Source: Isoetes taiwanensis (lineage: Eukaryota > Streptophyta > Lycopodiopsida > Isoetales > Isoetaceae). From it: DNA of 64,000 bases. Of this stretch, positions 9,538 through 64,000 are shown one piece after another. The translations under genes were made by a program, and so were the position numbers. Where the stretch lies: NCBI GenBank assembly GCA_021234155.1, contig JAJEKV010000103.1, positions 2,108,001 to 2,172,000 on the forward strand, written 5' to 3'. Each line of letters starts with the position of its first letter. Positions within the stretch are counted from its first letter, which is position 1. Under the pieces are notes generated by a model. It saw nothing but the letters and a program-made list of their open reading frames with translations, was not told the DNA's origin and searched no databases.

Positions 9538-10633
9538 CTAACAATCCTCTTTCTTAATAAACTTGGCCAAATACATGTCTTTGGGCACACATATGATTCT
9601 TTTAGCGTGTAAAGCACATGCCAGGAAGTCTTCAAAGTGTTGGACAATCTTTTGCTTCGCAGCTTCTTGCAAAGCAAGTAGCATCTCATTTGTCACTCGC
9701 TTACTCTTGTCGAATTCGTGCAGGACTTCACGAGTCAACCTCGAAAATGCTGCTTGAGGTATCAGAAGGCTGTAGCTGTTATGAAAGTGCCTGATCTCCT
9801 TCGCCGCTCGTGAGAAAGGGGAGTCTCTGCTCCACTTCATAGGCTTCGCCGGTGGTTGTGGTTTCTATGGGGGAGGTTTTAATGTGTTCTCTTTTGTTAG
9901 CCTCCCTCCTTCCACATATGCGACTCTGTACTCGTGGTAGTACTTTGATTACTCATCATACATTTTCATGTACGCTTTGTAATCCGCCAATTTCTGCTTG
10001 TACTCTCTGTCCTTCTTTAGGGTGACGGACTCTGAGCAGACCTGCCAGATATATTGGGGTCTGACTTAGTCCAAGCTGGGTATGGTGGTGGCCCTTCGAG
10101 CTCTTCTGTGTTTGCCTCTTCCCTTCTCTGCACCAAAGATCCTTCCCACATTCCGCCTTGCTCTTGCCAGATAGGCAACTTCCAAGCATCATCTGACTCA
10201 GTATCTGATGATAATGGCGGTTGATCTAGATCTCTCTCGATGATCTTCATCCCCTTGCTAGGCGTCTTCTTGGTGTTGCTTGCGGGTGCCTTCTCCGAGA
10301 GCGGGTCCTTGTCTTTCTCCATCCTCTGTCATGCGAGTTCCTCTCTTTCTGCCATCCTTCACTTCTTCTATTCTCTTTTCCTCCTCTTGATTCTTCGGAG
10401 GCGATGAGCCTCTTTCTCTGTGGGTTGCTCGTCGTGATCCTCCTCTGAGTCTCAAGATTCTGTTCTTAATTCTCCTGTGTTTGTTCCTCTTCTTACTCGT
10501 CGGCGAGATTTTGTGGATCTTCATTTTTCCTCCGTTTCTTAGCCTCCCTCGCCTTCTGTTCGGCCGCGAGGACTTGGACGCTCATGGATTCGTCTTCCAT
10601 TATCATATTTGTTATTTGTTTGGTGTGAGCCAT
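9538..10633 (-). pseudogene. Histone H3-like gene of gypsy-E, intact histone fold
   Basis: On the minus strand the start at 10633 gives MAHTKQITNMIMEDES, close to the H3 tail MARTKQTA. A lysine-, arginine- and glutamate-rich linker follows, with stops and at least two frame changes (pieces at 10524-10258 and 10322-10017). A tyrosine-rich segment (YKAYMKMYDE) near 9990-9950 is shared with gypsy-A. The last 100 residues (9840-9538) are open and align end to end with the H3 fold: AKEIRHF (H3 LREIRRY), SRLTREVLHEF (QRLVREIAQDF), LLALQEA (VMALQEA), HFED and HAKRIICVPKDMYLAKFIKKE ([21 protein letters not shown]). Loop 1 has the length of canonical H3, not the extra residue common in centromeric H3. 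Product: a nuclear nucleosome subunit or H3 mimic, by inference. Confidence 0.8.
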
Positions 10634-10736
10634 GTTTTCTATCACCTCGATTGCCTCACTGGTGCCCTAAAATCGACTTGCATGACGGAGCTAGATAACT
10701 AAGAGGGAAGAGTGCAAATGGCGTGCCCTAAGGGGT

Positions 10737-11397: not shown

Positions 11398-12795
11398 TGT
11401 GATGACCCTACTCGTATACGGTGCCCCGCATGTATAGAACCGGAGTTCATCCTTTCTATCAGTGCACAACTGCTGACACGAGGCGGTGTACCTATCATCA
11501 GGTCCTTGGTGGTGGGCAAGAATCTGACGGGGAAGAATAGACGTATCATTCGTCCCGTCTCCCTCGGGGTCTACCTAGCTGCGAAGCATCACATAAAATA
11601 CATATCCACCTCGAAGGGTGGCCTATCATCACATAACATTTGAACAACAAATATTAATAACATCAGCAAAGAAGGAAAATCCTACCCAAGGCTCAGACTC
11701 ATGGGGATTGACTGACACGGCTTGGGTCTACAGAGGACAATGCAGACAGAATTCATGGCAAATGGATTTGGCTGGCATAAGAACATAGTCATTGGGTAGT
11801 CCACTCCATCCGCCCCTCCTCTGCGTACTTTGCAGATAGGCTGAAAAGTATTGGGGATGTGATCATAGCCTGCCAGGTGCATAGTTAGAGGCACTACTCC
11901 CGGGTTGCATCTCCCTAGTCCCGATGAGGCACCCACCGAGGCAAACTCTCAGTGGCAAACTATTAGGCCTAGCCCACAACGTTCCCCTGTCGTCGCTACA
12001 CACCAGAGGGATCAGCCTTCCTTATCAACCGGTCTAACCCCGCCACCCACAGCCAGGCAGGCTCATATGCACAGGCCGCAATTACTGGGTACTAATGAAG
12101 TCACTCTAGGAATATCATCTACAAGGTGCGTACAGAGATAAACCATCATCATCCAATGGACTTGAAAATACATAATAACTTCTAATCTATCTACCTAAAC
12201 ATACATGGTTAGGTTCATTCGTTAGAGGCTGAGATATGGGGATCTAGAGATTCTCTAAGACTAAGAAGAGATGCAAAGTCCGCTCAATGCCAGTCGGAAA
12301 GCCGTCATTGAACGTCAAATCAATCACATACCAGATCGTTGGCTGCTTCCAGTCCTCGAACGACATCCATGCTATTGGAATGTCTTGAGATGATTGAGTT
12401 TTGGCGATCTGGTTGGAGAAGCGAGCTCCACAGTTGTTGCCAGTCGGAATGGATCTGTCGTAGGTGCAATGCGAGCTTTGGAAGCTGGAATCTGGAAGGG
12501 ACACTTTTAGGATTCCAGATCCCTTTATCATGACGCTTTAGGGTTGGCATCTAAAGGGTCACTTAGGGCTATTGCCACGTGGCGATGGTTATATGCATAT
12601 GTTAATAATTCCAATGGTCATATTTCAGGGTATAACCCTATACCGTTGCCATGATGCATATGTTAATGGTTCCAATGGTCATATTTCAGGGTATAACCCT
12701 ATACCTTTGCCATGTACATGTCGTTGAGTTGACATGTACCAATGATGTGGCAGTATAATATGTATTCGCACCATATATTATGTTGGAACATCACA
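11398..12795 (-). repeat. 5' LTR of gypsy-E
   Basis: TG...CA-bounded repeat of 1398 bp. Both ends are homologous to the gypsy-A and gypsy-C LTR ends, and the middle shares blocks with them (11690-11870 matches 38930-39070, 50640-50760 and 62400-62540). The U3 part near 12230-12560 has diverged. No partner 3' LTR is in the window. Confidence 0.8.
12595..12715. repeat. Two 61-bp tandem units in the gypsy-E LTR
   Basis: The unit starting GCATATGTTAA and ending CCGTTGCCATGAT is repeated almost exactly at 12595 and 12656. It lies in the U3 half, where enhancer repeats are common. Confidence 0.8.
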
Positions 12796-13947: not shown

Positions 13948-14728
13948 TTCTTTCTGCCATCCTTCACTTCTTCTATTCTCTTTTCCTGCTCTTGATTCTT
14001 CGGAGGTGATGAGCCTCTTTCTCTGTAGGTTGCTCGTCGTGATCCTCCTCTGCTTGGTCATCTTGCTCCAGCGTCTCAGGATTCTGTTCTTAATTCTTCT
14101 GTGTTTGTTGCTCTTCTTACTCGTCGGCGAGATTTTGTGGATCTTCATTTTTTCTCCGTTTCTTAGCCTCCCTCGCCTTCTGTTCGGCCGCGAGGACTTG
14201 CACGCTCGTGGATCCGTCTTCCATTATCAAGTTTGTTATTTGTTTGATGTGAGCCATGTTTTCTATCACCAATCGCCTCACTGGCGCCCTAAAATCGGCT
14301 TGCAGGACGGAGCTAGATAACTAAGAGGGAAGAGTGCAAATGGCGTGCCCTAAGGGTCTATTTACAGTGTTGGGAATTCTAGGGTTCCTACTGGGGTGAT
14401 CATGTTATCTAACTATAAATGTTGCCTTGCCTAGAATCTCTGATTCCCTTAAGGTATTTTATTCCAACTACTCACGACGTGCATCAGAGCTCGACTGAGA
14501 TTCTCAATCGGGTGTTGGGCACACGGCGTGAGTACTCTACCTCTTAATTTATCTTTTTTATTCATTTTCTTAGTTTTACAATAGAATAGAATAGAATAGG
14601 TTTTTTAGCATCCACGGAGACCAATTGGCCTATGGGACACAAACAAAAAGAGAGCAGCAAGCATATTACTGACAGGATTATAATGGAATCTGTTCTTGGC
14701 GTCGATTTTGATTTTAAGCTTACTCACT
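13948..14728 (-). pseudogene. Fragment E2: leader and start of a second H3-like gene
   Basis: Homologous to gypsy-E from about 10343 to 10999. On the minus strand the ATG at 14257 gives MAHIKQITNLIMEDGS, then a basic segment (EQKAREAKKRRKNEDP), with the first stop at 14117 and two more in the same frame. The dyad (14469-14534) is kept. The TATA position has decayed to GTAAATAG. The fragment is cut on both sides, with no LTR and no histone fold left. Confidence 0.75.
14581..14690 (-). mobile_element. About 105-bp insertion with an ATTCT tail inside E2
   Basis: Compared with gypsy-E (10960-10975), E2 has about 105 extra bases between GTTTTACAAT and TTATAATGGA. On the minus strand the insert ends in (ATTCT)n, the tail type of LINE-A, and the flanks TTACAAT/TTATAAT may be the target duplication. 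It is best read as a dead-on-arrival LINE or SINE copy. Confidence 0.5.
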
Positions 14729-22124: not shown

Positions 22125-22140
22125 AATCTTCTCGTATCAA

Positions 22141-24646: not shown

Positions 24647-24662
24647 AATCTTCTCGTATCAA

Positions 24663-24838
24663 GGCTCTGATACCATGAAACAATTTGAGCGCCAACACAG
24701 AAGCAAGAATTTGCAAAGAACCAGATCCCGATCTTGTGGGATTCTCTTCTATTTATAGTGATCCTAGAATACAACAAGCCTAATTAAGGCTCCACTAATT
24801 CTGTTACAACGTTCATATCCTAACTCTAAAAGTTCTCA
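24663..24838 (-). repeat. Primer site and truncated 5' LTR of copia-B
   Basis: Same arrangement as at 22141-22316: TGGTATCAGAGCC (24675-24663 minus), then the LTR from 24676 to 24838, cut at the same base as copia-A. Confidence 0.8.
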
Positions 24839-26540
24839 TAATGTTTGCCCAATTCGTTTGGTATTTGGGGAGGGTATTCTGGCAATGGTGGGGACTAAGA
24901 TTCTGGTATTGTATTGTATGGAAAACCGTATATATTGCCATATTTGAGGAGCTTAATGTCATTTAGAGGTCATGTTGCTTTTTTGGGTGTTCAGATAAGT
25001 TATCTTTGGAAAGGTTGAGAAGGGAAAAAAAAAAATTCAGGGCGTTTTTTTAGGGCGTGGATAAGAAGGGGTGCCCCCTTCTTTTTTTGGCAAGGGTAGC
25101 GGAGCACAGATGTAGCGGAGCACCAGACTCGAAACATTTTTCCAGAGCTCGAGACATCTGTGATCTCCAAAACACCTGTGAGCTCCAAAACGCCCATTCC
25201 GGCGGAAGAAGGCCATCTAGCCCGACTACATTCTGTAGCAGCAAGGGGCTCCTACCATGGCCACGATTTCCCTGCCCTAAAGTCGGAGGTGTTGAAGGGA
25301 TTACAATGATGAAAATGGGCTCTGGTGAGGCCGTTCGGGCCTGGAGGTTCGAATCCTCCAGCCCAGGATTGGTTGCTTTCTTTTTCTTTTTCGGGGCTGC
25401 CCGGCGATACCTTGAGGCGATTTGTCAGATTTGTCGGCGGCGATCATGGGGCCACGAAGGCGGCGGCGATGGATGGCGGGCGGCGATGGGGAGGCCGACC
25501 TCAATAGCCATTGATCGGTGATTCCGGCAGTCCGTAGCCGGCTTCAATGGCTTTTGCATTTTCTTTATTTTTTGTGTCGCCAACCATAGGTCTATTTTGC
25601 ACCATTGAAACTTTCGTGGGGGTACCTGTGCAACATATTAAGGGCCCTTGATCTGAGAATATTCCCCAGATCAATGGTCCAAAAAACAAGATATAAACAT
25701 CCCATAAAGATATATGTTATATGCTAACAACAATTATGGGATGAAGATCTTTATGGGATGTTTATATCTTTGTTTTGGACCATTGATCCGGGAATATTCT
25801 ATCAAGGGCCCCCTAATATTTTGCACAGTGCCCCCACCAAAGTTTCAATGGTGCAAAACGTAATTCCTATGGTTGGCGCATACAAAAAATAAAGAAAAAT
25901 GCAAATCGGGCTTCTGCCACGATCGCGGACCACCGGATCGGGAATAATGGCTATTGGGGCCGAAGCCCCACCCCATCGGCACAAAGCCCTGCCATCCATC
26001 GCCACGCCTTCGTGGCCCCATGATCGCCGCTCGTGACAAATCGTGACGGCAAATCGCCCGCGGGTATCGCTTCTAAGCAGCCCACCGCATAAGAAAAAGA
26101 AAAAGAAATCAACTAATCCCGGAGGATTCAACCTCCAGTCTCGAACTACCACCACCAGAGCCCATTTTCATCATTGTAATCCCTTCAACACCTCCGACTT
26201 TAGGGCAGGGAAATCGTGGCCATGGTAGGAGCCCTTGTCGCTACGTAATGGCCTGCTAGATGGCCTTCTTCCCACGGGAATGGGCGCTTTGAGCTCAATT
26301 GTGTTTTGGAGATCACGAGATGTCTCGAAGCTCGAAAAATGTTTCGAGTCCGGTGTTCGCTACATCCGGTGGCTTCGCCCTTAAAAAAAGAAGGGGGCAC
26401 CCCTTCTTATCCACGCCCTAAAAAAACGCCCTGAATTTTTTTTTTCCCTTCTCAACCTTTCCAAAGATAACTTATCTGAACACCCAAAAAAGCAACATGA
26501 CCTCTAAATGACATTAAGCTCCTCAAATATGGCAATATAT
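24839..26540. mobile_element. Foldback transposon, 1.6-kb near-perfect palindrome
   Basis: 24930-26540 is one long inverted repeat centred near 25735. For example GCCATATTTGAGGAGC (24937) mirrors GCTCCTCAAATATGGC (26519-26534), and the GTGGATAAGAAGGGGTGCCC region near 25055 mirrors 26396-26415. The pairing continues inwards to the AAACATCCCATAAAG / TTTATGGGATGTTT centre. The loop is small and there is no transposase. About 90 bp outside the left arm (24839-24929) has no mirror on the right, so the right tip seems lost. It sits inside the copia 5' LTR, whose remainder follows at 26541. Confidence 0.85.
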
Positions 26541-37655: not shown

Positions 37656-37660
37656 GCCTG
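37656..37660. repeat. Target-site duplication of gypsy-A (with 51064-51068)
   Basis: GCCTG directly precedes the 5' LTR and directly follows the 3' LTR. The LINE-C reading resumes after it on both sides. Confidence 0.9.
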
Positions 37661-39372
37661 TGTGGCGTTCCAGCACAGTATACGCTCCCAGGACGTATAT
37701 TGTACCGCCACGTCACGCGTACACGCCACCCCGATTGACGTGTACGCCAACGTATAGCCAAGTGGGTAGCCCTAGGGGGCAACTTGCTAAGAATGTGCAT
37801 TAGTATTAATGTGCACATTTTCCAATGTACACATTAATGTGGGCACACATTTCCATGTGGCCACTTGATGCCAAGTGGGCCATACCCATAGGAGCAATTA
37901 ATGTGCACATTTTCCAATGTACACATTCATTAATGTGCACACATTTCCATGTGAGCACATTTGGGTGCACACATTTCCATGTGGGCACATTTGGCCACCT
38001 AGCCTTAAAGGCAAGTGGGCCCATTACCAATTATCCCACATGCCAAAAGGGGATAATTGGAAACCCTAGCCACCCCCTTGTCTATATAGGGTTGGAAACC
38101 CTAACTAACCTAATTTTCGATTTTAGGGCTTTAGAACTCTGTTTTGGCTGCCTCAACAGCCAAAACCGCATCCCAGACTCTGCCTGGGAGAATTGCATCC
38201 TTAGTTCCTCGAGATTCGAGCGTTTCAGAAGGATGGTCGAGCTCAGGTCAGGAGGAGCCCCTCAAGGATCAGGTATTTGGCCAATTAGATAGTCTAAACC
38301 CTATTTTAGGCATTGAATCAATAGGTTTAGCCTATTAGATTGCTCATAGCAGCCCTCTAGAACTCTAGATAGCAGATTCTAACTAAAGAACCTAACTCTA
38401 TGATATAGATTAGATCTTGTTCTTTAGTTCTTCTGTGATGTATATGGATGATGTATCTCTGTGAACTCCTTGTATTGGGAAGGGGGGTAGAGACCTAAAG
38501 CTTTGTAGTTGATGCTCCTAGAGTAGCCTCTCTAGCACACCTTGTAGATTCGCCTCAGGCACAAGAGCCACACCGGGATGTGGGTGGAGGGGCCAGACTG
38601 GCTAAGAAGGAGGTTCATGTCCTGACTCTTGAGCGACCCCTCTGGTGTGTAAAGACTGCCGGGGGTCACTGTGACTAGGTCTAATGGCTTGCCACTGCGT
38701 GTGGGCAAGGCATGGGCTCGACACTCGTGAGGTGGTGAATATGACCTTCCATTGAGTTCAAGTCGGATACGGGCAGTGGCCCTCTAGTCACCTTGAGTCA
38801 GCATTGTAGATCTCTGGAGGGAGAAATCCCTACCTGCCCCATCGGAACTGGGGAGATGTAACCCAGGATATAGCCCCCTTGGCTATGCATCCGGCGGGCT
38901 ACAGTCAGGTCCCAACACTTTTCAGCCTACTCTGCAAAGTGTGCACAGGAGGGCGGATGGAGGGACAACCCTAGGCCATGTTCTTATGCCGCCCAAATCC
39001 ATTGCCATGAATTTGCATGCGCAATGAACTCTCGAGACCCAAGCTTGTCACCCATCCCCGTGTCCGAGCCTTGGGTAGGATTCCCTATGTGATGTGCCGA
39101 TCTTTGTCTATGCAGATATGTGGAGGACCATCCGTCGTGATGGTCATATGATGTTGATGTATGTGCTACCGACATGTATGTTTACGCCCGCAGCCTAGGT
39201 AGGCCCCGAGGGAGATCGGGGTGCAATGACCCTTCCACTCTTCCCAATCGGAACCCGCCACTTGTTGCAAAGTGTCATGTGGAGGGCCCTCAGATAGCAT
39301 GGAGCTGGTATGGGGATGAACTCCTGCTTTGTATACGGTGAGGGCACCGTGATACGCAGTAGGGGACGCCAC
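37661..39372 (+). repeat. 5' LTR of gypsy-A
   Basis: About 1.71 kb, homologous throughout to 49354-51063. U3 has repeated TGTGCACATT / CACACATTTCCATGTG units (37797-37990) and a TATA-like CTATATAGGG at 38083-38092. Differences from the 3' LTR cluster at CTG/CAG sites. Confidence 0.9.
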
Positions 39373-40010
39373 GGTGGTATCGGGAGCTATGTTCTTGGAG
39401 ACCAAGAGCAAAGCACCGCCATGTTCCCAAAGAGCACTAACTTGATAGGATCCTCAAACCTCGAAAAATGAGAAATTTTTTTTTTCTCATTTTTGTAGTT
39501 ATGCTAAGCTAGTAAATGCTTAAAAAGAATAGAAACGTAAAAAGACTAAAATTGATGAGCCAACATCCAAAAGTAGGAATTGGTCACACGTCGCCCAGAC
39601 GATTTATACATTTTAGAAATCGGGTCGGGCTTAACGGCAGACATTCACTTTGACACCAAAAAGTTGTAAATTACAAGAAAAATATCTTGATAATTCTAAA
39701 TTTCAGCTAAGAATTAGTAGATTTAGCATGTTACATGTTAATTTAATAGTGGGGCCCCACCATGTCTCACACGCCGCGCCAGACGAGGTTTCTAGATTCT
39801 AGGAATCGGGCTGGGCGCTTAACGGTGAGACCTTGCTTAATTAAGTGTTTTAGATGCCTTAGACAACCCAAAAAGGTAGTTTAAAAGTTGACCTAAAATT
39901 GGCCCTATAAATAGAACTGGACCCCCATTTTTCGCGTTCTTCCCGAGAACTTCGCCAGATTGTCAAGGCGATCTTCCGCGCCAGAGCTCCAATCGTTTAA
40001 CCGAAAAATG
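39373..40010 (+). promoter_or_regulatory. gypsy-A leader: primer site, dyad pair and TATA box
   Basis: GGTGGTATCGGGAGC (39373-39387) is a variant Met-tRNA primer site. Two dyads follow: a weaker one at about 39584-39646 and a strong one at 39764-39831 (GTCTCACACGCCGCGCC ... GGGCGC ... GGTGAGAC), 180 bp apart. CTATAAATAG at 39905-39914 is the TATA box, 106 bp before the MARTK start. The arrangement is shared with gypsy-C and gypsy-E. Confidence 0.7.
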
Positions 40011-41281
40011 ATGGCCCGCACAAAGCGTAATCGCTAGGAAACCTCGTAGGGAGCGGATCCTCCAGCCGTGCCCGACCTTGTTCATAGGATTCTTCGTGAA
40101 CGCTTTCTCCGCCGACATCGGATCTTCGCCGAGCGAGGAATCGTGGTCCGGACAGAGCCACCATACAGAGATCTTGGAGGACGACGCCGACGTCATGAGC
40201 GTAGATCCTCAATGAAATTGAACGCAGGAGGCGTAAAGCGAGCAAAGCCAATGGGAGCAACACCGTGGGGACGCCAACCCACAGGAGGAGAGAGGGAACA
40301 GGTGAACCCACCCATAGGCCAAGAACAACCCCAGATGAGATCCACCCGGCAGGAGGAGCAGGTAGGAGAGGAGCAAGCAGCCACGGAACTCACCCCTGAG
40401 GAAGAGGCCGATCAGCACGCCGGCCCATAAGTGCGAAGTCAAAGAGCCAAGGGGAGCGTAGATCAAAGGATCGAAGACGCCGGAGGACCCAAGAAGAGGA
40501 GGGCCAAGGCCATCAAGGCGGCAAGAGGAAGCCGGGTGAAGGTTGGGAAGAGAGCCCAAGGTCCTGGTCATCAACGAGCCGCCGGGAGGGGAGACCCCGC
40601 CCACCACCGACGACATTCGACCAAGACTACGCGTCGGGCGCAGACGGGCAAGCTCTTCAAAGCCCCGGGTTGTAGAGGAAGAGGCACACCAGCAGACGCC
40701 CAAGAGCAGAGGAGGAGGCAGTGTGGCGGCCCCCACCATTTCCGACGTGGGATAGGGTTAAGGCCCCACGGCCGCAGCGGGAAGCCTATGTGATAGACCC
40801 CTTAAAGGTCTATGAGAAGAGAATGAGGGAGCACAACGCATATATGGCGAAGTGGGAGGCCTACAACACCTATTACTGTGAGCACCGGGTGAGAACGATC
40901 GGCGGGCACCACCTAAGAGCCAGACACTAAAGCCCCCTCCACCAAAACCCAAGGCCCCACGAGCACCCGGGAAGAAGCGGAGCAAGAAGAAACAGGAGGA
41001 AGACAGGGCACTCAAGGAGATCCGCCACTTCTTAAAAGAAAAAGTTACGGACTCGATTCCACGGCGCCCGTTCCAATACCGGGTCCGCTAAGTCATTCAA
41101 GAATACAACACGGACATACGCGCGTGATGCACGAGATGTTGTGTGGTTTGCAAGAGGCGTCGAAGCCCACTTGGTGAAACATTTTGAAGATTCAACGGCC
41201 TGCACAGTGCACGCGAAGAGGGTCACCCTCATGAGGCAGGATATGTATCTTGCCAGACACATCAAGGGAGAACGCCCTTGA
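40011..41281 (+). pseudogene. Histone H3-like gene of gypsy-A
   Basis: The ATG at 40011 (a second ATG lies directly upstream at 40008) gives MARTKRNR, then TAG where CAG would fit. An Arg/Glu/Gly/Pro-rich linker of about 330 codons is spread over three frames. VHRILRERFLRRHRIF near 40075 resembles gypsy-C's IIRKMLRERLARGG. YEKRMREHNAYMAKWEAYNT near 40810-40870 matches the Tyr-rich segment of gypsy-E. The H3 fold starts at 41011: [25 protein letters not shown], then after a one-base break [20 protein letters not shown] and [19 protein letters not shown], ending TGA at 41281. VTLMRxD is more like plant centromeric H3, while IKGERP is more like canonical H3. A nuclear nucleosome component or mimic is inferred. 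Confidence 0.82.
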
Positions 41282-41424
41282 ACCTTGTAAATGACTGTAA
41301 AATTTTGTTAATATAAAGAAAATTTTGTGTAAATAAAGTGTCCAAACCTGTTTAAATAGGTCAAGATATCGATCCCTAGCCTTCGTTTTAATTAAATTGG
41401 AGTTTTGAGCAAAATTGAGACGAT

Positions 41425-41690
41425 GTCTCACACGTCGCGCCAGGACAGATTTCTACATTTTAGAAATCGGGCTGGGCGCAACGTGTGAGACCAGGCCCAA
41501 AAATGCCCAAAACAGCTCCAAATCGACCAAGTAAGGGGTCAATTCTGCCTAACTCGATGAGTTTAGTAGAATTACAGCCTTAGATCACCTAAATTGAGTA
41601 ATCCTAGCCCAATTAGGACCCATGTCTCACACGTCGCGCCAGGACAGATTTCTACATTTTAGAAATCGGGCTGGGCGCAACGTATGAGAC
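41425..41690. promoter_or_regulatory. Second dyad pair of gypsy-A
   Basis: Two nearly identical 67-bp dyads (41425-41491 and 41624-41690), 199 bp apart. The outer stem is GTCTCACACGT/ACGTGTGAGAC, the next CGCGCC/GGGCGC, and the inner AGATTTCT/AGAAATC. They lie between the H3-like gene and the TATA box of ORF-X. Confidence 0.75.
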
Positions 41691-41866
41691 CCCGTACCAT
41701 GTCATCACCAAATGATCCCCAAATTGCACAATAGGTTCAATAGCTCTCCTTAGCATGCTCAAACTCTAGAAATAGTCTTCAAACTTGCAATTGCATCCCT
41801 TAATAGATCAGAATTACCTAATCTCAGTAAAATCTAGGTCATCCAAAAATTAGGGTTTTCCCCTTT

Positions 41867-41876
41867 CTATAAATAA
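41867..41876 (+). promoter_or_regulatory. TATA box of ORF-X
   Basis: TCTATAAATA, 123 bp before the ATG at 41990, repeating the geometry of the H3-like promoters. The downstream sequence GCTTAGGCGATCT is also similar to the gypsy-C leader (ACTTAGGCGATCT). Confidence 0.6.
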
Positions 41877-41989
41877 GTTCCCCATTTCTCAATTGGCACC
41901 CTGCAAATTTGCTCCCCACTGCTTAGGCGATCTTTCAGCTCCCTGAGGCGCTTTCAGATCCGTTTGATACTCCCTTCCTTGCTAGATCA

Positions 41990-43501
41990 ATGGCCACCGC
42001 TGATTTCGGCGATGGTAATATGCCCCGTTCCATGCCATCAGGCGGATGTCAACGACATCTTCCAAGTCTTTGTGAAAGAAATCGACGTCCAAGCTACGCT
42101 GAATGCAACCCCAGCATATAGGCAGGTGCTAGCGGAATTCCAGGCTAGGGTAGGACCCTTCCTTGTCCAAGTTCCCCCTTGCATAGGATACTTCGTTCCC
42201 CGCCCGTCCCTTCAGGCAGCCTTGGGCGATGTCCCCAACATCGCCAAATACTTGACAAACAAGGCGCAAAGGCTACTCGACTACATGGTCCCCGACAACC
42301 AACAGACCAAGTACTTCTTACACCGCCGCCCTAGCCATCTTCTTATCCCACCGCTACCGAGAACCCCGATAGGGGCAACTCTATCCCTCCGGATGGAGGT
42401 AGACCCAATAGCCGAAAGGTGAGGAAGAGCAAATGCCGCCGCAAAGATCAACAAGAACAAGAAGCAAGAGAGGATGAAGAAGAGTCTGACGACGAAGGTT
42501 ACACCTGAGCTCGACTCTGGACGAAGAACGCCGCCAAGGAGAGCAGGATTTGATCAACTTCGAAAGCAATGCCAGGCATCGAGTTGTTTCCCCACTTGGG
42601 CTAGGCATCACAAGCCTAGCCCCTATCATCATCGACACGAGAGGAGTATCTACTCCTCAAACGACATCCTAACCTCCCCAATGTAGGGAGAGGGAGCTCA
42701 GTTGGACGAACTACTCCACCGGGCAAGGGTAGACCGACTGGGACGACTTCATCGCCCAGGGGAGCATCGACTTCCCGCGCCCAAGTGAGGGAGTCCGACA
42801 CCTACATGGGGGAGACGACCACATCCAGGCCTATAGCAAAGATCGTGCAATTGATGGACGAGCCGGAGTCGCCAGGGAGAGGAGGAGTTCCTCGCCTCCA
42901 AGAGAGATGGGGATCCGTGGGAAGACCACGAGTATCCTAATGCCGGGTCCTTCAATATCACCCTTGCCAAAAGGAGAAGGAATCGACCTCGTGAGGCTCG
43001 ACCGCACAATTGAAGACTACAGGGAGCTCATCAAGTAGAGGTCGACGAGGCAGTACTGGCGCCACGAGCCGAGGCCAAACAAGCGGAGAAGCTTCAATTG
43101 ACACACAATGACAGTCGCCTGTGTACTACTTACCATCGGCCGATGGATGGGAGAATAGCGTAATTCACCGCAAGTTCAGTCCCCAGGCTTAAGAAGGAGT
43201 GTTTATGCCGATTGCACTCAAAAGCCGGCAGCATGCTCGAATAGCAAAGAATGTCGACTATGCCGCCTTTAGTCAAGAGGGCAATGGCACTTGACCTCTT
43301 CGATTTCGCCATCCCCACCGACGCCGTGGGAGATTAGCAAAGGATCGCGCCCTTACATCCGACCGCAGAGTAGAAGACCCGTGAGAGCCATCCGGGGAGG
43401 CTCACGCAAGCATCATCAGGAACTTGGGTCACTCGGTAGGGACGGCCCAAGTTAAGAAGTTTCTTGAAGACAACCCGTCTTACCGGCGATTTCAAGACTA
43501 G
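41990..43501 (+). pseudogene. ORF-X of gypsy-A, unidentified nuclear-type protein
   Basis: The start ATGGCCACCGC is chosen from promoter spacing. The best-preserved part (42048-42420, another frame) reads DIFQVFVKEIDVQATL, PAYRQVLAEFQARVGPFLVQ, and SLQAALGDVPNIAKYLTNKA. The spacing of Phe, Tyr-Arg, Val and Pro recalls the N-terminal A domain of MCM helicase subunits, but this is weak. A long acidic and basic linker follows. The end (43270-43501) contains VKRAMALDLFDFAIPTDAV and RLAKDRALTSDRRVED in adjoining frames, which could be a decayed histone-fold of H2B or H4 type, then VKKFLEDNPSYRRFQD. It is not gag, since gag follows. Function unknown. Confidence 0.4.
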
Positions 43502-43672
43502 TTAGACTCTTGATCCCGGAGACTTTTTGTACCTAAAATATTATATGATATATAAATACAATTCTGTTGCACTTTAAATGTTTTATTGATGTATGTTGCC
43601 CCACAATTATACCAACAAACATAAACAATGCAAGAGAACAAATGGAACTAACCATATAGCCATTAATCACTT

Positions 43673-45070
43673 GTGGATGCAGCTAGAGGGCTAAGCGCAG
43701 GGGAACGACAACTGCGAGACCTTATAGAAGAGCAAACCCCGCCCAGACCACCCCCGGCAAGGAACCTATTTGAAGATAGGGAACCCATGACCCCAGAGCA
43801 GGAGATAGCCCAGATGAGGACGGATCTGGAGCAGATAAAGGCATTACTGTCCGTGCAAGCAGGAGTGGGTTCGGTGGGCAATGCTCAGTTGCCGCAAGCA
43901 TCAGCTCGGAGGGAAGGAAGGGACAAGAAGAGGAGCAAGAGAAGGAGATCCCCCAGTCCGGAATCTTCCGACTCAAGTTCAGACTCAGACTCCGACTCTG
44001 AGGAAGAGGAAGAGCAGGCTCAGGAACCAACAGAGGGAAGGCAGAGGAACACCCCAGAGGGACGACAAAGAGATACCAGGGCCTCCGACTACCAGAAGAA
44101 GGTAGATTCCGTGACCGGGCAATGTATGGAAGGCTCTGAACCGGAACAGCTTCTCGTGGGAGAACAGCGTCGCTTGGAAGCAGAGGCATGGCTGGACGAA
44201 ATGAGCGAGTACGGAAATGCTTATGGCATGAAGGATAAGGACAAAGGCAGAGTTGCAACAGCCAACTTGAAAGGAGCCGCCGGATCCGGTGGAAGGGGTA
44301 TGCAAAGGCACACGGCTTAAGCAGGGATGCATGTAAGTTCGTAAAGTTTGCTAAAGCCTTCTGCGCCATTACGCTTCAAGGGAACATAAGTCCAAAGATG
44401 ATGCAGTTAGTTTTTACAAAGTTGCAGCAAGGCAACAAATCGGGTTCAGAAATATACAGAGGAATTCATGAGGCTAAGGTCATGTGCCGGGTTGGAAGAG
44501 AAGCATGCAAAGAGAAAGCTATATTGAGGGGGCTGAATGAGGAGATCCATAAGTTTGTGAGAGCAATAAACCCTAGGACAAGATCGTAAGCGTAATCCAA
44601 GGCTATAAGCTTGCAAGGGTCGGGACCTCGTAATAGCGGCACAAGCAAAGCAGATTTCCGGGAGAAAGGCAAGGCGACAAGAAGCTACAGCCCCTGTGGC
44701 AGCAAAGGGTCTGTGTCCAGCTAGAGCCCCATATGGTGGGAACCGGGGAAGCAAAGCAGGAGAAGAAGAAGTGTGTCCTTTAAGGACAAGCAGAGAAGTC
44801 AAACTACTCCAAAGCAAAGGTAATCCTTTTGCAAGCGATGCCCAAGGAAAAGAGGCAGGAGTGCATAGGAAAAAGAAATTGTGCTTCAGGTGCTTCCAGC
44901 CGGGCCATAGAACAACAAACCGCCCCTACGTCATGAGTGCAGCCCTAGCGGAGTTGGGAGATTGGGACATCCTGTCGGACGACGACGGCGAAGAGGCCCG
45001 CGACTACATTCAGGGTGAGTGTCACATCTTTGCCGCGAATAGATACAGAGCAAGCCGAGAGCCAAGATAA
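43673..45070 (+). pseudogene. gypsy-A gag with defective zinc knuckle
   Basis: The first 215 residues (43673-44320) begin MDAARGLSAGERQLRDL and have a Ser/Asp/Glu-rich acidic stretch (SSDSDSDSEEEEEQ, about residues 97-115). 44398-44589 (TKLQQGNKSGSEIYRGIH) and 44696-45070 follow in other frames. The last piece carries CFRCFQPGHRTTNRP, a CCHC knuckle whose last Cys is replaced by Arg. A capsid/nucleocapsid role is inferred from position before the protease. Confidence 0.65.
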
Positions 45071-45075
45071 GGTAA

Positions 45076-45437
45076 TTTCCACGAGGGGAAGGCTAAAGCT
45101 AAATCCTTCATAGTCTTGATAGACTCGGGGAAGTAGCCATAACTTTGCATCCCCGTAATGGTTCAGATGTTGAAGTTGAAGCCGCTAAAGTCAAAACCAA
45201 GACCCGTTGTTTTAGCAAGTGGCAAAGTAAGGCGACGGGCGGGCAAGAGAATTAACTTCGACATCGACTTGCCGTGGATTAATATCCAGATGGGAGCGAA
45301 GTAATGGGCATTGGAAAGTATGACTTGATCATAGGAATGGAGTACCTTGGGCCAAAGGGGCCATTATCGATCGTGGAAGCGGAAGGTGACCTTCCCAACG
45401 CACGACGGCAAGATCATTGAGATAACAGTAACTTAAG
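45076..45437 (+). pseudogene. gypsy-A aspartic protease remnant
   Basis: SFIVLIDSGK near 45105-45135 is the DSG active site followed by a break. PVVLASGKVRRRAGKRINFDIDLPW is the flap region. Stops at several points. It would cleave the Gag-Pol polyprotein. Confidence 0.6.
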
Positions 45438-45448
45438 TTGTTCCCATC

Positions 45449-48170
45449 ATGCAGTGCATGTCTTCTAAACGGCTGTTCAAGTGCATCAAGAGTGAGCAAG
45501 TGGCATACATCTTCAAGCTTGAGATTAGTGAGCCGGAATCAGAAGGAAGCAAGGAAGACAACGCGCTCAGCAAGTTGCCGAAGCAAGTATCTCAGCTAAT
45601 CACGGAGTTCCATGATCTCTTTCCAGATGAGATCAAGCAGCTCCCTCCTTATAGGGGAGTCGAAAAGCAGATAGCACTCGAACCTGGAACAAAGCCAACA
45701 AGCAAGGCTCCATATAGAATGACAACACAGGAGTTGTCGGAGCTGAAGAAGCAGTTGCAGGAGCTGCTTGACCTAGGTTTCATTAGACCTAGTGTCTCGC
45801 CGTTTGGAGCGCCCATTCTTTTTGTCAAGAAGAAGGATGGATCCTTGAGGATGTGCATAGACTATAGACAGTTGAATAAGCACACCATTAAGAACAAGTA
45901 TGCGCTCCCAAGATCAGACGACTTGATGGATCAGCTCCAAGGGGCAAAGATCTTCTCCAAAATCGACTTAAGGTCAGGATATCATCAGATCAGGATAAAG
46001 GAAGAAGATATCCATAAGACCGCCTTCAGAACGCGGTATGGGCATTATGAGTTCACAGTAATGCCTTTCGGCTTATCAAATGCCCCAACGCGTTCATGAG
46101 GCTCATGAACGATATCTTCAGGGAGTTCCTGGACACCTTTGTGATTGTTTTCTTTGATGACATTTTGGTGTATAGCAGATCCCTTGAAGAGCACGTACAA
46201 CACTTGAGAAGAGTGCTAGAGAAGTTGAAGAGGCACCAGTTGTACGCCAAGTTGTCGAAGTGCCACTTCGCAACAGAAAAGGTGGAGTATCTAGGTCATG
46301 TGATCTCAGCAGAAGGCATCTCGACAGACCCCGCCAAGATTGAGGCAGTCATTCAAAGGGTCGGCTACCAAGAATGTGCATGAAGTCGAAGTTTCCCTCG
46401 CCTAGTTGTGGTACTCACAGAAGTTCGTGAAGAACTTTGCTAAGATAGCAGCCCCGTTAACAGACCTGACGAGGGCAGAGAAGGTGAAAGATTGGGTAGA
46501 GCATTGGCACAAGAAAGCCCAAAAGGGGTTTGAATTGTTGAAGGAAGCTTTAACAACAGCCCCAGTCTTAACCCTGCCGGACCCGGAGAAAGATAAGCTT
46601 GTAGCAACAGATGCGAGTAAGATAGCTACAGGTGCAGTGCTTATGCAAGAAGAGCGGGTGGTAGCGTATGATTCCAGGAAGATGAACGACGCCGAGACGC
46701 GCTACCCAACGCACGATCAGGAGTTGCTTGCGGTTGTCAGGGCATTAAGAATATGGAGGCATTATCTCTTGGGAAGGAAGTTCCAATTGGATACCGACCA
46801 TCAGAGCCTCCAATATGTATTCACGCAACCACACCTTAATCTGAGGCAGCGGAGATGGATGGAGTTCCTCGAAGAATATGACTTTCAGATAGTCTACAAG
46901 CCGGGGAAGCTCAATGTGGTAGCAGATGCGCTTTCAAGGCATCCCCTGACAACTAGAGTGCATTGCAATGCAATCTCGACGCTCTCCAGCGACTTTGGTA
47001 GGAGGATTGAAGAGTCCTTGCCAACGGACGTGGATTTCAAGGAGGTATGGGCAAGCCTTTCGAAGGAGGCCAGAACAGATAAAGAGCGGGAGGCCTTCAA
47101 GCATTATAAGAAGGAAGGCAACCTGTTACACCATAAGAACAAGTTGTGCGTACCCGAATCATCAAGTGTAAGGAAGTTGATCCTCCATGACACGCACAAC
47201 AGCCCAATAGCTGGCCATGCGGGATTCATGAAAACATATTTCAAAGTGCGCAGCAGCTATTATTGGCCAGGAATGAAGAAGCAAATAGCTCGCTACATCA
47301 AGGAATGTCAGCTATGCGGCCAGACGAAGGCGAGCAAACTTCAATTCGGGGGCACTAGAGCCATTAGCGGTGCCAAACGCTAAGTGGGAGGTAATCGGCA
47401 TGGATTTCATCACGGGACTCCCAAGAACGCCGAGAGGCAAGGATGCCTTAATGGTAGTGGTCGACAAGTTGTCGAAGATGGCACATTTTGTGCCTTGCGT
47501 AACCACGATCTGACCATGGATACGACAAAGCTCTTCACCAAAGAGATCTTCGGGCTTCATGGCATGCCAAGGGAGATCATCTCCCATGAGGGGATCCGGT
47601 TCATGAGCCTTTTGGCAAGACCTCTTTGCGAACGATCCGCGAAGCTATCCATGAGCACGGCATATCATCCTCAGACGGATGGCCGACGGAGCGGACCAAA
47701 CAGGATTTTAGAGGACATGCTACTGAAACTATGTCCGGAATAAGCAAAGTATGTGGGAAGAATTTATTCACTTGGTGGAGTTTGCATATAATAGCACCAA
47801 GCAGGAATCATCCCAAATGTCGCCGTTTATGATCAATTACGGCTATCAATGCCTAACTCCGCACACTTGGCACAACCCCGCGTCAAAAGTGGAAGTTTCG
47901 CAGCCAGATGTTGGCCGATATCAAAGCCTTGTAGAGGAAGTTCGTGGCTATCCGCAAGCAAGAAGAATAGATCAAAAGAGCATCGCCGACAAGCATCGAA
48001 CAAAGAAGAGAGTTCAAAGTTGGAGATGATGTTTGGCTCAAGATTAAGGTGAAGCAGCGGCTCGGGGATCGGCAATTGCAAGAAGCTTGCTCCAAGGTGG
48101 GCTGGACCTTTTGGAATAGTCGAGAAACTAGGCAATCAAGCCGCTGGGCTAGACTTGCCAAAGACACCTA
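45449..48170 (+). pseudogene. gypsy-A pol: RT, RNase H, integrase
   Basis: 45449-46099 holds RT motifs [49 protein letters not shown] and MPFGLSNAP. After one frameshift, 46096-46383 has VIVFFDDILVYSRS (catalytic FDD) and YAKLSKCHF. 46406-47383 has RNase H (TDASKIATGAVLMQEERVVAYDSRK, TDHQSLQYVF, KLNVVADALSRHP) and the integrase HHCC zinc finger (HDTHNSPIAGHAGFMKTY ... CQLCGQTKA). The integrase core follows in pieces (MDFITGLPRTP region near 47400; STAYHPQTDGR near 47660; WEEFIHLVEFAYNSTKQESS 47755). Five or more breaks are present. Confidence 0.85.
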
Positions 48171-48249
48171 AAGATTCATAAGGTCTTCCACGGAGTTTGC
48201 TGAAGAGGCATACCCCAAATCCGCACGAAGTCTTGATTCACCAACGCTG

Positions 48250-48504
48250 TTGGAAATGACGGAGGAACAATTTGGAAATAGTCCCGAATTGATTCTTGAT
48301 AAAGCTTTCAAGAAAACGAGGAGATCAGAATTCCTCCAAGATTTGGTCAAGTGGAAACACTTACCGCTGGAAGATGCCACGTGGGTACTTAAGAAAGATT
48401 TAGTAAAGCAAAGTACCCACGTTTATGGAGCAATGGGACAGCAAAGGTCATCTCCCAAGAAATCGCTCGTGCATGTCGATTTGTGTAGGTTAATGCTTGT
48501 ATAG
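48250..48504 (+). CDS. gypsy-A integrase C-terminal chromodomain
   Basis: The open frame contains PELILDKAFKKTRRSEF, then LVKWKHLPLEDATWVLKKDL, the chromodomain core (LVKWxxxPxxxATW) found at the end of chromovirus integrases. In that family the domain steers integration to chromatin marked on histone H3. Here only one clear aromatic-cage position is visible (Trp of VKWK). The chance ATG at 48256 is not a true start, because this is the tail of pol. Confidence 0.75.
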   Translation: MEMTEEQFGNSPELILDKAFKKTRRSEFLQDLVKWKHLPLEDATWVLKKDLVKQSTHVYGAMGQQRSSPKKSLVHVDLCRLMLV

Positions 48505-49353
48505 TTAAGATTAATCCACGCATGCCACCCACGCTTTAGTATGGGTCGCATGCGTTGTCACCGATGATGGGACCACTACGGTGATCTCTAGGGGTGGGTG
48601 TAATGTCAATGTAGGCATGACCGCGTTTCCGCTTTGGGCGAAAGTGGAAGGTAGATTAGAAAGTCTACTGTCCCATTTTTAAGTAGGCGACCTCGAGAGA
48701 AAGGAGGTCATTGAGGAATGCATTCATAGGAAAAGCACCTTTAGCCCCATATATGCTTTGATAGGGAGGAATCTATCCTTTCAGCCCCCCACGCCGAGAA
48801 GGATATCCTCCACGCTGGGCAACTAGAGGTGTAGGCATGAGCGCATATAGGCATGTGGCTGTCGCTCAAGGCCATAATGGAAGATTCACCCTCTTCCCAC
48901 CAGGAGATTAGCCATGCATCCATGTAGATAGGTGGGGTGGTCACCATATAACCAAAAATTTTAATTAATAATTAAATGGTACTAACGTAAGTGTCGACTG
49001 CAGAGCCAAGAGCCCGGAGGGGGCAAGGAGGTCGAAGACGAAGACTTGCAACACAAATTTTGTTGGAATGTGTTGCAAGGAATCAAGGGTACCGAACGTT
49101 AATTTTAAATTTTGATAAACTTAATAGTAATGTTAAGGGAATGTTGGAGTAATCTGTTAGTAATGTTGTGAATTGATAAGTTATTTTATAATATAATAAT
49201 GTGATAAAAGTATTACCTTGAGGTAATTTTAATAAAATGTGTAAGTATTATAGGAGTATATCGTATGCATCAAGGTTGATTGCGGTTAGGAAGATTCCAA
49301 GGTGGGGAGAACCAATGATCTCGCGGACAAACATCATTTCAAGGTGGGGAGAA
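48505..49353 (+). other. gypsy-A 3' untranslated region and polypurine tract
   Basis: No gene. AAGGTGGGGAGAA at 49341-49353 is the polypurine tract next to the 3' LTR. A near copy, AAGGTGGGGAGAA at 49300-49312, lies 41 bp upstream and could be a second priming tract. 49100-49260 is AT-rich. Confidence 0.65.
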
Positions 49354-51063
49354 TGTGACGTTCCGGCCAACGATACGCGCTCCCGGGACGTATATTGTAC
49401 CGCCCGCCAAGTACACGCCACCCGATTGACGTGTACGCCAAACGATAGCCAAGTGGGTAGCCCTAGGGGGCAACTTGCTAAGAATGTGCATTAGTATTAA
49501 TGTGCACATTTTCCAATGTACACATTAATGTGGGCACACATTTCCATGTGGCCACTTGATGCCAAGTGGGCCATACCCATAGGAGCAATTAATGTGCACA
49601 TTTTCCAATGTACACATTCATTAATGTAACACACACATTTCCATGTGAGCACATTTGGGTGCACACATTTCCATGTGGGCACATTTGGCCACCTAGCCTT
49701 AAAGGCAAGTGGGCCCATTACCAATTATCCCACATGCCAAAAAGGGGATAATTGGAAACCCTAGCCACCCCCTTGTCTATATAGGGTTGGAAACCCTAAC
49801 TAACCTAATTTTCGATTTTAGGGCTTTGGGAACTCTGTTTTGGCTGCCTCAACAAATTAAAACCGCATCCCGCATCACACGGGAGAATTGCATCCTTAGT
49901 TCCTCGAGATTCGAGGCGTTTTGGGAAGGATGGTCGAGCTCAGTCGGGGAGGAGCCCCTCAAGGATCAGGTATTTGGCCAATTAGATAGTCTAAACCCTA
50001 TTTTAGGCATTGAATCAATAGGTTTAGCCTATTAGATTGCTCATAGCAGCCCTCTAGAACTCTAGATAGCAGATTCTAACTAAAGAACCTAACTCTATGA
50101 TATAGATTAGATCTTGTTCTTTAGTTCTTCTGTGATGTATATGGATGATGTATCTCTGTGAACTCCTTGTATTGGGAAGGGGGGTAGAGACCTAAAGCTT
50201 TGTAGTTGATGCTCCTAGAGTAGCCTCTCTAGCACACTGTAGATTCGGCCTGTGCACAAGAGCCACACCGGGATGTGGGTGGAGGGGCCAGATTGGCTAA
50301 GAAGGAGGTTCATGTCCTGACTCTTGAGCGACCCCTCTGGTGTGTAAAGACTGCCGGGGGTCACTGTGACTAGGTCTAATGGCTTGCCACTGCGTGTGGG
50401 CAAGGCATGGGCTCACACTCGCGGAGGTGGTGAATATGACCTTCCATTGAGTTCAAGTCGGATACGGGCAGTGGCCCTCTAGTCACCTTGAGTCAGCATT
50501 GTAGATCTCTGGAGGGAGAAATCCCTACCTGCCCCATCGGAACTGGGGAGATGTAACCCAGGATATAGCCCCCTTGGCTATGCATCCGTGGACTGGCTGA
50601 TCAGTCCCAACACTTTTCAGCCTACTCGCAAAGTGTGCATGTGAGGGGCGGATGGAGTGGACAACCCTAGGCCATGTTCTTATGCCAGCCAAATCCATTG
50701 CCATGAATTCTGTCTGCAATGAACTCTGGAGACCCAAGCTTGTCAGTCCATCCCTGTGTCTGAGCCTTGGGTAGGATTCCCTATGTGATGTGCTGATCTT
50801 TGTCTATGCAGATATGTGGAGGACCATCCGTCGTGATGGTCATATGATGTTGATGTATGTGCTACTGACATGTATGTTTACGCTTCCGCAGCTAGGTAGG
50901 CCCTGAGGGAGACGGGGTGCAATGACCCTTCCACTCTTCCCACTGGAACCCGTCACGGTTGCAGTGTCATGTGGAGGGCCCTGTATTAGCATGGAGCTGG
51001 TATGGGGGATGAACTCCTGTTTGTATACGGTGAGGGCACCGTATACGAGTAGGGGACGTCACA
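49354..51063 (+). repeat. 3' LTR of gypsy-A
   Basis: TGTGACGTTCCGG ... GACGTCACA, 1710 bp, homologous to 37661-39372. The TATA-like CTATATAGGG recurs near 49777. Confidence 0.9.
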
Positions 51064-57682: not shown

Positions 57683-57811
57683 TTCGTATGTCTTCCACTC
57701 CCCCCCGTGCCCTGCTTGCGGGGTATTATGGAATTCGTACGGAATCTCCTTCCTAAGATTCTCTACTAAGGGGACATAAATGCGTCCCTTATAGAACCAT
57801 AAATCATCATT

Positions 57812-61267: not shown

Positions 61268-62829
61268 TGTGACGTTCCGCCAAAGATAAGATACGGTCCC
61301 GGATCTTTATCATTGATCAAATCCATCAATGCGACACGCGCTCCCTTTCCGACCGCGGTACGCCAACGGATAGCTGTGTAAGTAGCCCTAGGGGCAACTT
61401 GCTAGGAGTGTTCATATATTATTAATGTGCACATGTGCACATTAATGAGGGCACACCTTTCCATGTTGGCATATTTTGCCACCTAGCCATTAAAGGCAAG
61501 TGGGGCCTTTCCAATTATCCCACATGCCAAATTGGGTAATTGGAAACCCTAGCCTAAACCCCATGTCTATTTAGGGTAGGAAAACCCTAGCTTGCTAGTT
61601 TTTCGTCCTTAGGGTTTTAGAGCTCAGTTTTGGCTGCCCCAGGAGCCAAAACCGCCTCCGTGACGCCCAAGCCGAATTGCACCATCGGTTCCCTCAATTC
61701 CGCCATTTCAGCAGGATGGTTGAACTTCAGTCGGGGAGGAGCCACTCAAGGATCAGGTATTTGGTCAATTTAATAGCTTAAACCGTCTTCTAGTCATAGA
61801 ATCAGTAGGTTTAGACTATTAAATTGCCCATAGTAGCTATCTAGAACTTAGATCTCGGACACTAACTAAAGAACCTAACTCTATGATTAGATCTAGTTCT
61901 TTAGTTCTTCTGTGATGTATTTGGATGATGTATCTCTGTGAACTCCTTGTATTGGGAAGGGGGGTAGAGGCCCTAAAGCTTGTAGTTGATGCTCCTAGAG
62001 TAGCCTCTCTAGCACACTTGTAGATTCGCCTGTACAAGAGCCACACACGGGTTGTGGGTGAAGGGGCTGACCGGCAAAGAAGGAGGTTCATGTTCGACTC
62101 TGAAGCGATCCCCCGGTGTGTAAAGCCTACCGGGGATCATTGTGACTAGGTCTAATGGCTTACCACTGAGTGCGGGTAAGGCATGGGCTCGACACCCGTG
62201 AAGTGGTGTACACTTTCCAGTGGGTTCAGTCGAATACGGGCAGTGGCCCTCTAGTCACCTCGAGTCAGCATGTAGATCTCTGGAGGGAGTGATCCCTACC
62301 TGCCCCATCGGAACTGGGAGGATGAGACCCGTGAATAGCCCCTTAGGCTATGCATCTGGCGGGCTGATCGAGGTCCCAACACTTTCAAAACCTACTCGCA
62401 AAGTGTGCACGGGAGGGGCGGATGGAGGGACAACCCTATGCCATGTTCTTATGCCAGCCAAATCCATTGCCATGAATTTCGGCGCAATGAACTCGGAGAC
62501 CCAAGCCGCCGGTCACCCCTTGAGTCCGAGCCTTGGGTAGGGTTCCCCCATGTGATGTGCTGACCCCTCGCCTATGCAGGATGTTGATATACCACCCTCC
62601 GGGTGGATGGAGGATCTCGCTGGTACCGACATGTATGTTTACGCCGCTAGCCTAGGTAGGCCCCGAGGGAGACAGGGGGTAGAATGACACCTTCACTCTT
62701 CCCACTGGGACTCGCACGGGTGCAAAGTGATATGTGGAGGGCCCCCGTGACAGCATGGAGCTGGTGTGGGGGAAGAACTCTGTTTGTATACACAGTGAGA
62801 GCACCGTGACATGAGTAGGGGACGTCCAC
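61268..62829 (+). repeat. 5' LTR of gypsy-C
   Basis: About 1.56 kb, homologous to both gypsy-A LTRs with deletions in U3. It ends GACGTCCA next to the primer site GGTGGTATCGAGC. A possible outer target sequence is GTCCA (61263-61267). Confidence 0.85.
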
Positions 62830-63035
62830 GGTGGTATCGAGCAATGTTCTTGGAGACCAAGAGCAAAGCATCGACCATGTTCCCAAAGAGTACTAACTTG
62901 ATAGAATCCTCAAGCCTCGAAAAGTGGGAAAATTTTTCTCTCACCTTTGTAGTTTATGCTAAGCTAGTAACAATTAAGTGAATTGGAATTTAACAAGATT
63001 AAAAAGAATGAGCCAAAAATTTTCCAAGTGAGGTG

Positions 63036-63404: not shown

Positions 63405-63505
63405 ATGTAGAACCCCCTCATTTTTTTCGTTTAAGCCCTAGAAATCCGCTCTTCCCAACTTAGGCGATCTCTCGGCGCTTTTATCCGATTGACGATCCAG
63501 AAAGC

Positions 63506-64000
63506 ATGGCCCGAACCAAACAGACGCAAGAAGGAAGCTGCCGCCCAGCGAAGCCACCAGCGCCACTGAGGCGGAGATCATTCGGAAGATGCTTCGTGAG
63601 AGGCTCGCGAGAGGGGGACGTTCGCCTTCGGACGAGGAGCAAGACACGTCCGATCTGATTGAGGGCTTCAACCAGCAGGCAGAGCAGGACGAGGCCACAT
63701 CACCGAACTCCATGGACGAGGAGACGAGGGAGGTGTATGAAGGAATAGAGCGGGAGATCCGGCAGCAGGAACAAGCAGACCATTCAGACGCACCCACGGA
63801 GATCCTCGAGCAGGATGAGCAAGTGACAGGTCTGGAGCCAGCGGAGGTAGCAGACCTTAGAAGGTTCATCAGAAAGTACGAGCGCCGGCAGAAGAGAAGG
63901 GAAGACAAAAAGAGGAAAAGGAAGGAAGAGGAACAAAAGGCAGCAGAAGAAAAGAAGAAAGCGAAAGGGAAGTTCGTGGCTGGCATAAGGAGAACGAAGG
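63506..64000 (+). pseudogene. Histone H3-like gene of gypsy-C, 5' part
   Basis: The ATG at 63506 gives MARTKQT, identical to the first seven residues of histone H3. One base then appears to be missing near 63527. In the next frame ARRKLPPSEATSATEAEII follows, so allowing for this gap the tail would match H3 through ARTKQTAR. The reading stays open to the window end: MLRERLARGGRSPSDEEQ, an acidic linker, then a strongly basic Lys/Arg/Glu coil (RRQKRREDKKRKRKEEEQKA). The histone fold expected at the C-terminus lies outside the window. Confidence 0.75.

Follow-up and report, generated by a model that had tools for sequence, protein, structure and literature searches.

Genome-wide comparison shows that an ORF encoding a histone H3-like protein is part of Ty3 chromovirus LTR elements in Isoetes taiwanensis, and the substitution patterns of its copies reveal strong purifying selection on the gene; we regard it as nearly certain that these elements encode a selected histone. 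The window, by which we mean the whole stretch of 64,000 nucleotides analysed, contains decayed copies whose genes are broken by stops and frameshifts, so that whether the gene is kept or used cannot be read from the window alone. The first-pass annotation of the window had looked to fern genomes for further copies, a designation that is probably misplaced, Isoetes taiwanensis being a lycophyte.

Decayed elements in the window

Element A (37661-51062, forward strand) is a decayed 13.4-kb LTR element with both ends present, in which gag-like, reverse transcriptase (RT), RNase H and integrase regions follow in order. Alignment of the LTR pair gives 94.0% identity between the 5' LTR (37661..39372) and the 3' LTR (49354..51062), and the target-site duplication (TSD) GCCTG at 37656..37660 recurs as the identical five bases after the 3' LTR; no primer site was recognised in this element with up to three mismatches allowed. 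The decayed H3 gene occupies 40011..41278 on the same strand, as identified with PF00125 and tblastn, and consists of a tip, MARTK, beginning at 40011, a stop after MARTKRNR, a charged insert and a fold that runs across two frames. The second of these frames (41036-41278) scores 36.4 bits against PF00125 (E 7.4e-9), tblastn with host and element H3 queries gives matches at 41008-41121 and 41087-41278, and a Pfam scan of 40882-41088 alone gives no histone match.

Further downstream in element A, and again on the forward strand, an open frame at 41964..42422 corresponds by position only to ORF2 of other copies; it has no Pfam match, and tblastn with the group I ORF2 (see below) finds nothing in the window. 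The gag region at 43673..44320 was located by tblastn, the gag-pol of locus L007 matching element A at 43.5% over 696 aa from 44060, and a Pfam scan of that gag piece shows no gag family. The RT lies at 45449..46099 (PF00078, E 1.2e-18), and RNase H with the integrase zinc-binding domain at 46406..47383 (PF17917, E 6.9e-35; PF17921, E 1.4e-19).

Element E, on the reverse strand, retains an uninterrupted H3 fold of 108 aa at 9541..9864 that belongs to group II (see below); it scores 57.1 bits against PF00125 (E 2.7e-15), and its top match in the PDB is histone H3 (E 5.4e-18). An N-terminal piece at 10496..10666 on this strand has the decayed tip MAHTKQITN, aligned by eye to the MARTKQTAR of other copies, and part of an LTR lies upstream at 11678..11931 (reverse strand), 81% identical to the 3' LTR and 78% to the 5' LTR of element A on the other strand. 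Fragment E2 (14120..14320, reverse strand) is an N-terminal piece without the fold, beginning MAHIKQITN, within a repeat of element E in which 13949-14585 is 91% identical to 10344-10961. Element C, on the forward strand, has an LTR at 61421..63016 with 81.7% identity to that of element A, and the start of its H3 gene at 63464..64000, with MARTKQTQ at 63506. Its fold continues past the window end, is found in the 2 kb that follow the window (40 bits against PF00125, E 5.4e-10) and covers profile positions 12-78 before breaking off; two candidate primer sites for this element lie within three mismatches. Gene starts of the MARTK or MAHTKQ type and the accompanying H3 sequence blocks are thus present as the first-pass annotation had described them, the folds that it read by eye in elements A and E give significant PF00125 scores, as does that of element C, and its assignment of the gene to an LTR family is borne out in the window by the LTRs and TSD of element A and by the LTR ahead of the gene in element C.

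The window also contains a second Ty3-type element at 56453-59107 on the reverse strand, to which the chromovirus pol of locus L003 aligns by tblastn over 682 aa at 40%, and a stretch at 20652-24859 that looks Copia-like by eye and carries a direct repeat about 1.7 kb long, its copies being 93% identical.

Element structure and open copies across the genome

We searched the genome (1,658,258,908 bases in 1110 sequences) with PF00125. The first look yielded 8705 candidates; we scored the best 150, and all of these lay above the cut-off. This sample is ranked by score and is biased towards H3-like copies. Fifteen of the 150 are host-like H3 sequences, which match from profile position 2 and have short frames. 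Among the 135 others, counts by eye give a frame of at least 400 aa in 36 and a stop inside the match in five. We fetched 17 of these 135, mostly picked for long frames, as group I, together with three of the 15 host-like loci.

Homologues of gag or RT lie downstream on the same strand in 15 of the 17 group I loci and in none of the three host H3 loci; loci L001 and L004 have neither in the fetched stretch. In ten of the 11 loci with RT matches the spacing is nearly constant, H3 being at 4.5 kb of the stretch and RT at 8.8-9.2 kb. LTR pairs that are 94-97% identical flank the H3 gene in L001, L007, L010, L013 and element A, and a search for LTR pairs in L009 and L023 found none between the two. 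An exact primer site, TGGTATCAGAGC, is present in 11 of the 17 loci and in none of the three host loci. Among the five LTR pairs checked the TSD is clear only at element A, the script finding none at L001 and L013, and the letters shared at L007 and L010 being unconvincing. The linkage of gene to LTR elements nevertheless extends well beyond the window, as the first-pass annotation would have it. We reject a host H3 gene, a pseudogene or an assembly artefact as the identity of the ORF, because it lies between LTR and gag on many contigs and the three host H3 loci are without such neighbours.

Elements with the H3 gene are about 11-13 kb long and have the order LTR, H3 ORF, ORF2, ORF3, gag-pol with chromodomain, LTR. 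In L003, L007 and L022, Pfam identifies a Ty3-type gag, protease, RT, RNase H and integrase in that order, with a chromodomain (PF00385) at the end of the integrase. ORF2 is conserved, with stop-to-stop lengths of 470 (L007), 487 (L009) and 489 aa (L012, at 3533-4999 on the reverse strand of that locus), and ORF3, between H3 and gag, is likewise conserved at about 140-170 aa; the frames of both that were scanned have no Pfam family, and we disregard a weak PDB match of ORF2 (E 0.42). L003 retains H3 and gag-pol and seemingly lacks the ORF2 stretch. Locus L001 has LTRs about 2.3 kb long with 95% identity, between which lie the H3 ORF and some 2.2 kb more; it is an internally deleted copy that has kept H3.

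Open H3-like proteins across the genome are about 385-459 aa long with a C-terminal H3 fold. In group I the fold stands at the end of the gene in all 17 loci, and the 13 proteins with a clear start have 400-459 aa. Four of them score 141-149 bits against PF00125, 76-81 of 92 fold residues in the 13 are as in host H3, and, of 27 positions of DNA contact and H3-H3 contact, 22 are identical to host H3 in all 13. The N-terminal 200 or so residues form a conserved domain, which has no relatives at E <= 1 among 4089 candidates and none in a PDB search, and is unrelated to ORF2; the L013 version gave 2959 candidates in the genome and 151 matches from the 150 scored. In a search with the whole protein, query coverage is at most 45% among the matches listed (120 of 5424). 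Only L013 among the 13 full ORFs starts with MARTK, and six have a KSG motif before the fold, in the form ARKSG in L010 and L012; this motif is possibly a remnant of the K9 or K27 site and may still be a methylation site.

Copies of the window type, group II, were sought with the fold of element E, which gave 7704 candidates, of which 150, the window's own copy included, were scored; all 150 are at least 66% identical to that fold and, by counts made by eye, 109 have no internal stop and nine have a frame of at least 390 aa. We treat these as a different set from the group I matches because their PF00125 scores are much lower (66-84 bits in four proteins). Ten group II loci were fetched, picked for long frames. 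A tip is seen in eight of them, seven with exact MARTKQTAR and one with a stop at residue 2, and tip and fold share one open frame in five (L026, L027, L028, L029 and L034). The layout is the MARTKQTAR tip, about 300 mostly charged residues rich, by eye, in K, R and E, a conserved block that by eye is common to elements A and C, and a diverged H3 fold; identification of the block as an HMG box has no Pfam support and was dropped. Relative to the host reference (L017) the full N-terminal tail is gone: residues 1-8 remain in group II and few in group I, followed by the long insert. In group II the tail is missing from S10 on, and I, V or M frequently takes the place of K9 (position 9 is M in three of the eight tips, I in two, K in two, V in one). 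Downstream sequence was readable in three of the ten loci: L027 has H3, ORF2 and gag-pol, L028 has H3 with remnants of ORF2 and gag, and L026 has another element in reverse behind H3.

The tip itself is widespread. A pattern for MARTKQTARM has 80 matches in the genome and none in reversed controls, and a pattern for MARTKQTAR with codon 10 starting in A, C or G has 1589, with none for reversed patterns. Among 100 listed of these 1589 tips, position 9 is K in 51, I in 23, V in 17, M in three, L in three, T in two and E in one, so that M after an intact ARTKQTAR is present but in a minority, and position 8 is S instead of R in two. Twelve tip loci were fetched, of which one has an intact H3 gene (L040, a 388-aa protein with 76.7 bits against PF00125), eight are broken and three show no fold in the stretch fetched.

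Selection and descent

Estimates of dN/dS were made by the Nei-Gojobori method, many pairs being saturated at synonymous sites. The median for the group I fold is 0.046 (22 usable of 78 pairs); the group II fold has one of 0.092, the values for the 17 usable pairs out of 45 running from 0.03 to 0.28. Both medians are far below 1. The group I N-terminal domain gives 0.115 (11 usable pairs) and gag 0.051 (14 of 15 pairs usable). The eight group II tips, with the one stop codon set aside, have a pN of 0 against a pS of 0.57. Ranking of the PF00125 sample by score makes it lean to low dN and leaves synonymous divergence unaffected.

In a tree with folds of host and other eukaryotic H3 proteins, the 17 group I folds form one clade (97/98). 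When group II is added, 13 group I folds form one clade (89/80) and group II another (100/100), inside which the fold of element E falls; with element E as the sole group II fold, its end branch came to 10 and it had no usable place. The fold tree has 91 columns, too few to place a root and so tell which group stands nearer to host H3. Group I folds align without gaps to host H3 over 93 codons, and both groups together need 91 alignment columns for folds of 90 residues. A lengthened loop 1 is a feature of CenH3, and we reject identity with CenH3 because neither group has one. The first-pass annotation's proposal that the family captured an H3 gene and kept it through divergence of its subfamilies therefore holds, on the strength of the PF00125 scores, the linkage to LTR elements across the genome, the dN/dS values and the group I clade, and with the choice between one capture and two left aside.

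That groups I and II acquired H3 in separate events at one and the same position seems to us rather unlikely. Group I N-terminal parts match nothing in the group II genes of the window by tblastn, and the tree places group II on a long branch with the host sequences unresolved, as two captures would have it; against this, both groups carry H3 at the same position ahead of ORF2, their ORF2 products are weakly alike (L028 against the L009 ORF2, E 1e-9; L027, E 6e-7), and L013 of group I still begins MARTK. Between the group I lineages L003, L007, L010, L012 and L013, gag is far less diverged than the H3 module, L003 and L012 having a dS of 0.31 in gag and, in the N-terminal domain, a dN of 0.69 with saturated dS, a pattern that an exchange of 5' module and gag-pol among lineages would produce.

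Possible roles and known systems

Our best explanation is that a Ty3/gypsy chromovirus lineage acquired a host H3 gene and has used it as the 5'-most ORF, ahead of ORF2, ORF3 and gag-pol. Element RNA would be translated into the H3-like protein, which we infer to pair with host H4 and to enter nucleosomes on element DNA. In group II such a protein would offer the K4 tip with S10, K14, K18, K23 and K27 absent as substrates, and often K9 as well, and on this proposal the nucleosomes would for that reason resist silencing through H3K9 and H3K27. With M at position 9, and perhaps with I or V there, host H3K9 methyltransferases might also be blocked in trans, as in fission yeast with H3K9M, which dominantly blocks H3K9 methylation on other histones and traps Clr4 (PMC5030085). 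That paper, the one searched on this point, describes norleucine at position 9 as binding G9a much like methionine and mentions neither isoleucine nor H3K9I. We put the explanation as a whole, a captured and selected H3 forming silencing-resistant nucleosomes, at somewhat better than even, and escape from silencing as the main role at a little short of even; we prefer this to the marking or packaging of the element's own DNA that the first-pass annotation had suggested. A block to K9 methylation cannot be the common function, since K stands at position 9 in 51 of the 100 listed tips, and one shared role through K9M is weakened by those same counts, in which M occurs three times. Any single role based on the tip is doubtful, since MARTK is missing from 12 of the 13 full group I ORFs, and the decay of many tip-bearing copies (eight of the 12 fetched) also counts against the explanation.

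Histones of giant viruses package viral genomes, and the H3-like protein, perhaps with host H4, might similarly condense element cDNA in the particle or before integration, with the new N-terminal domain or the charged insert binding Gag or nucleic acid. The retained fold and DNA-contact residues of group I, the insert of group II rich in K, R and E and the position of the ORF ahead of gag are consistent with packaging; it does not need exact conservation of the tip amid synonymous turnover, and the two further ORFs that precede gag have no histone in Pfam scans, so that no element-encoded H4 is seen there, and we consider it unlikely. By entering host chromatin at selected sites, the protein might instead mark these as landing points for the element's integrase or chromodomain. 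An H3 tip could be bound by readers of the PHD type, and as chromoviruses the elements have a chromodomain (PF00385). By eye, in two copies, this domain is possibly Galadriel-like (CHD_II), retaining the YLVKWK chromo box and W45 and seemingly having lost Y24 and Y48. By the criteria for the methyl-lysine cage in PMC3350952, loss of these two residues means that binding of a methylated H3 tail is not expected and self-recognition is not favoured, and we think targeting quite improbable. That the gene is a passenger, carried by chance and without function, would fit the broken copies in elements A, C and E and at many fetched loci; medians of dN/dS of 0.05-0.09 with large or saturated dS, the frames of at least 400 aa in 36 of the 135 non-host matches (within the best 150 of 8705) and eight tips invariant in protein at a pS of 0.57 refute this for the lineages in the selection tests, and it is extremely unlikely overall.

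Giant viruses and polydnaviruses are selfish genomes that encode histones; these, unlike the elements described here, are DNA viruses, and their histones are doublets or H4, with no known tip separated from the fold. The present elements have LTRs, a TSD, a primer site, gag, protease, RT, RNase H, integrase and a chromodomain in common with chromoviruses and differ in having three ORFs before gag, the first of which is a histone H3. Plant Ty3/gypsy elements can carry extra ORFs, most often without known domains, and in Phalaenopsis elements a host epigenetic domain has likewise been captured as such an ORF, although this is an m6A RNA demethylase, an enzyme acting on RNA and not a histone (PMC9289625). 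Helentron-Cq-32A resembles our elements in being a mobile element with captured histone sequence, although its sequences are decayed H4 and H15 fragments with stops, in eight copies; in the literature that we found, these fragments are the only captured histone sequence in mobile elements (PMC4067079). VANC of Arabidopsis transposable elements counters host silencing, like the role proposed here, although it acts on DNA methylation and is not a histone (PMC5735166). The H3K9M mutants share the MARTKQTARM pattern (PMC5030085), although the element versions are natural, lie inside a long protein, have S10 replaced in the copies read and are accompanied by others with K, I or V. The word histone is absent from PMC7264820 and from the main text of the Isoetes taiwanensis genome paper (PMC8566536). 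Our searches of open-access PubMed Central turned up no functional histone gene in a retroelement; reports outside it may exist.

If the protein works, transposons would write chromatin, beyond being read by it, and the retention of H3 sequence by natural selection suggests that the elements influence their own chromatin with it. The elements offer a naturally occurring range of H3 proteins with altered tails, selected in several lineages, which could serve to ask which parts of the H3 tail transposon silencing needs. They also show that the tip is separable from the fold by about 300 residues and still preserved.

The three fetched tip loci without a histone fold (L038, L042 and L044, as judged by short motifs and by eye) represent a second protein family, in which exact MARTKQTAR is followed by V or M and then PG.GP (L042 at C162:84057-85887). 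Pfam scans of the 335-aa frame of L042 and of 124 residues of L044 give no histone match, and the L042 frame has no Pfam family above the cut-off; its members are possibly mimics of the H3 tail carried by a mobile element of a different type. On a bolder reading, which we think less likely than not, the retrotransposon lineage would make a histone immune to silencing, the tip with its active K4 marks being kept, repressive sites dropped and K9 often replaced by an aliphatic residue able to poison H3K9 methyltransferases, and would in this way protect its chromatin from the host; with the seemingly unrelated MARTKQTAR family in which no fold is seen, mimicry of the H3 tail would then be a weapon common to mobile DNA. 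Upstream of L042, in the opposite orientation, is a DUF7869 gene (L048). A further and frequent type of copy (L036 and L043) has the exact tip and a stop soon after it (ARIHPVV*, ARTHPCG), and in these decayed elements the tip is still near-identical.
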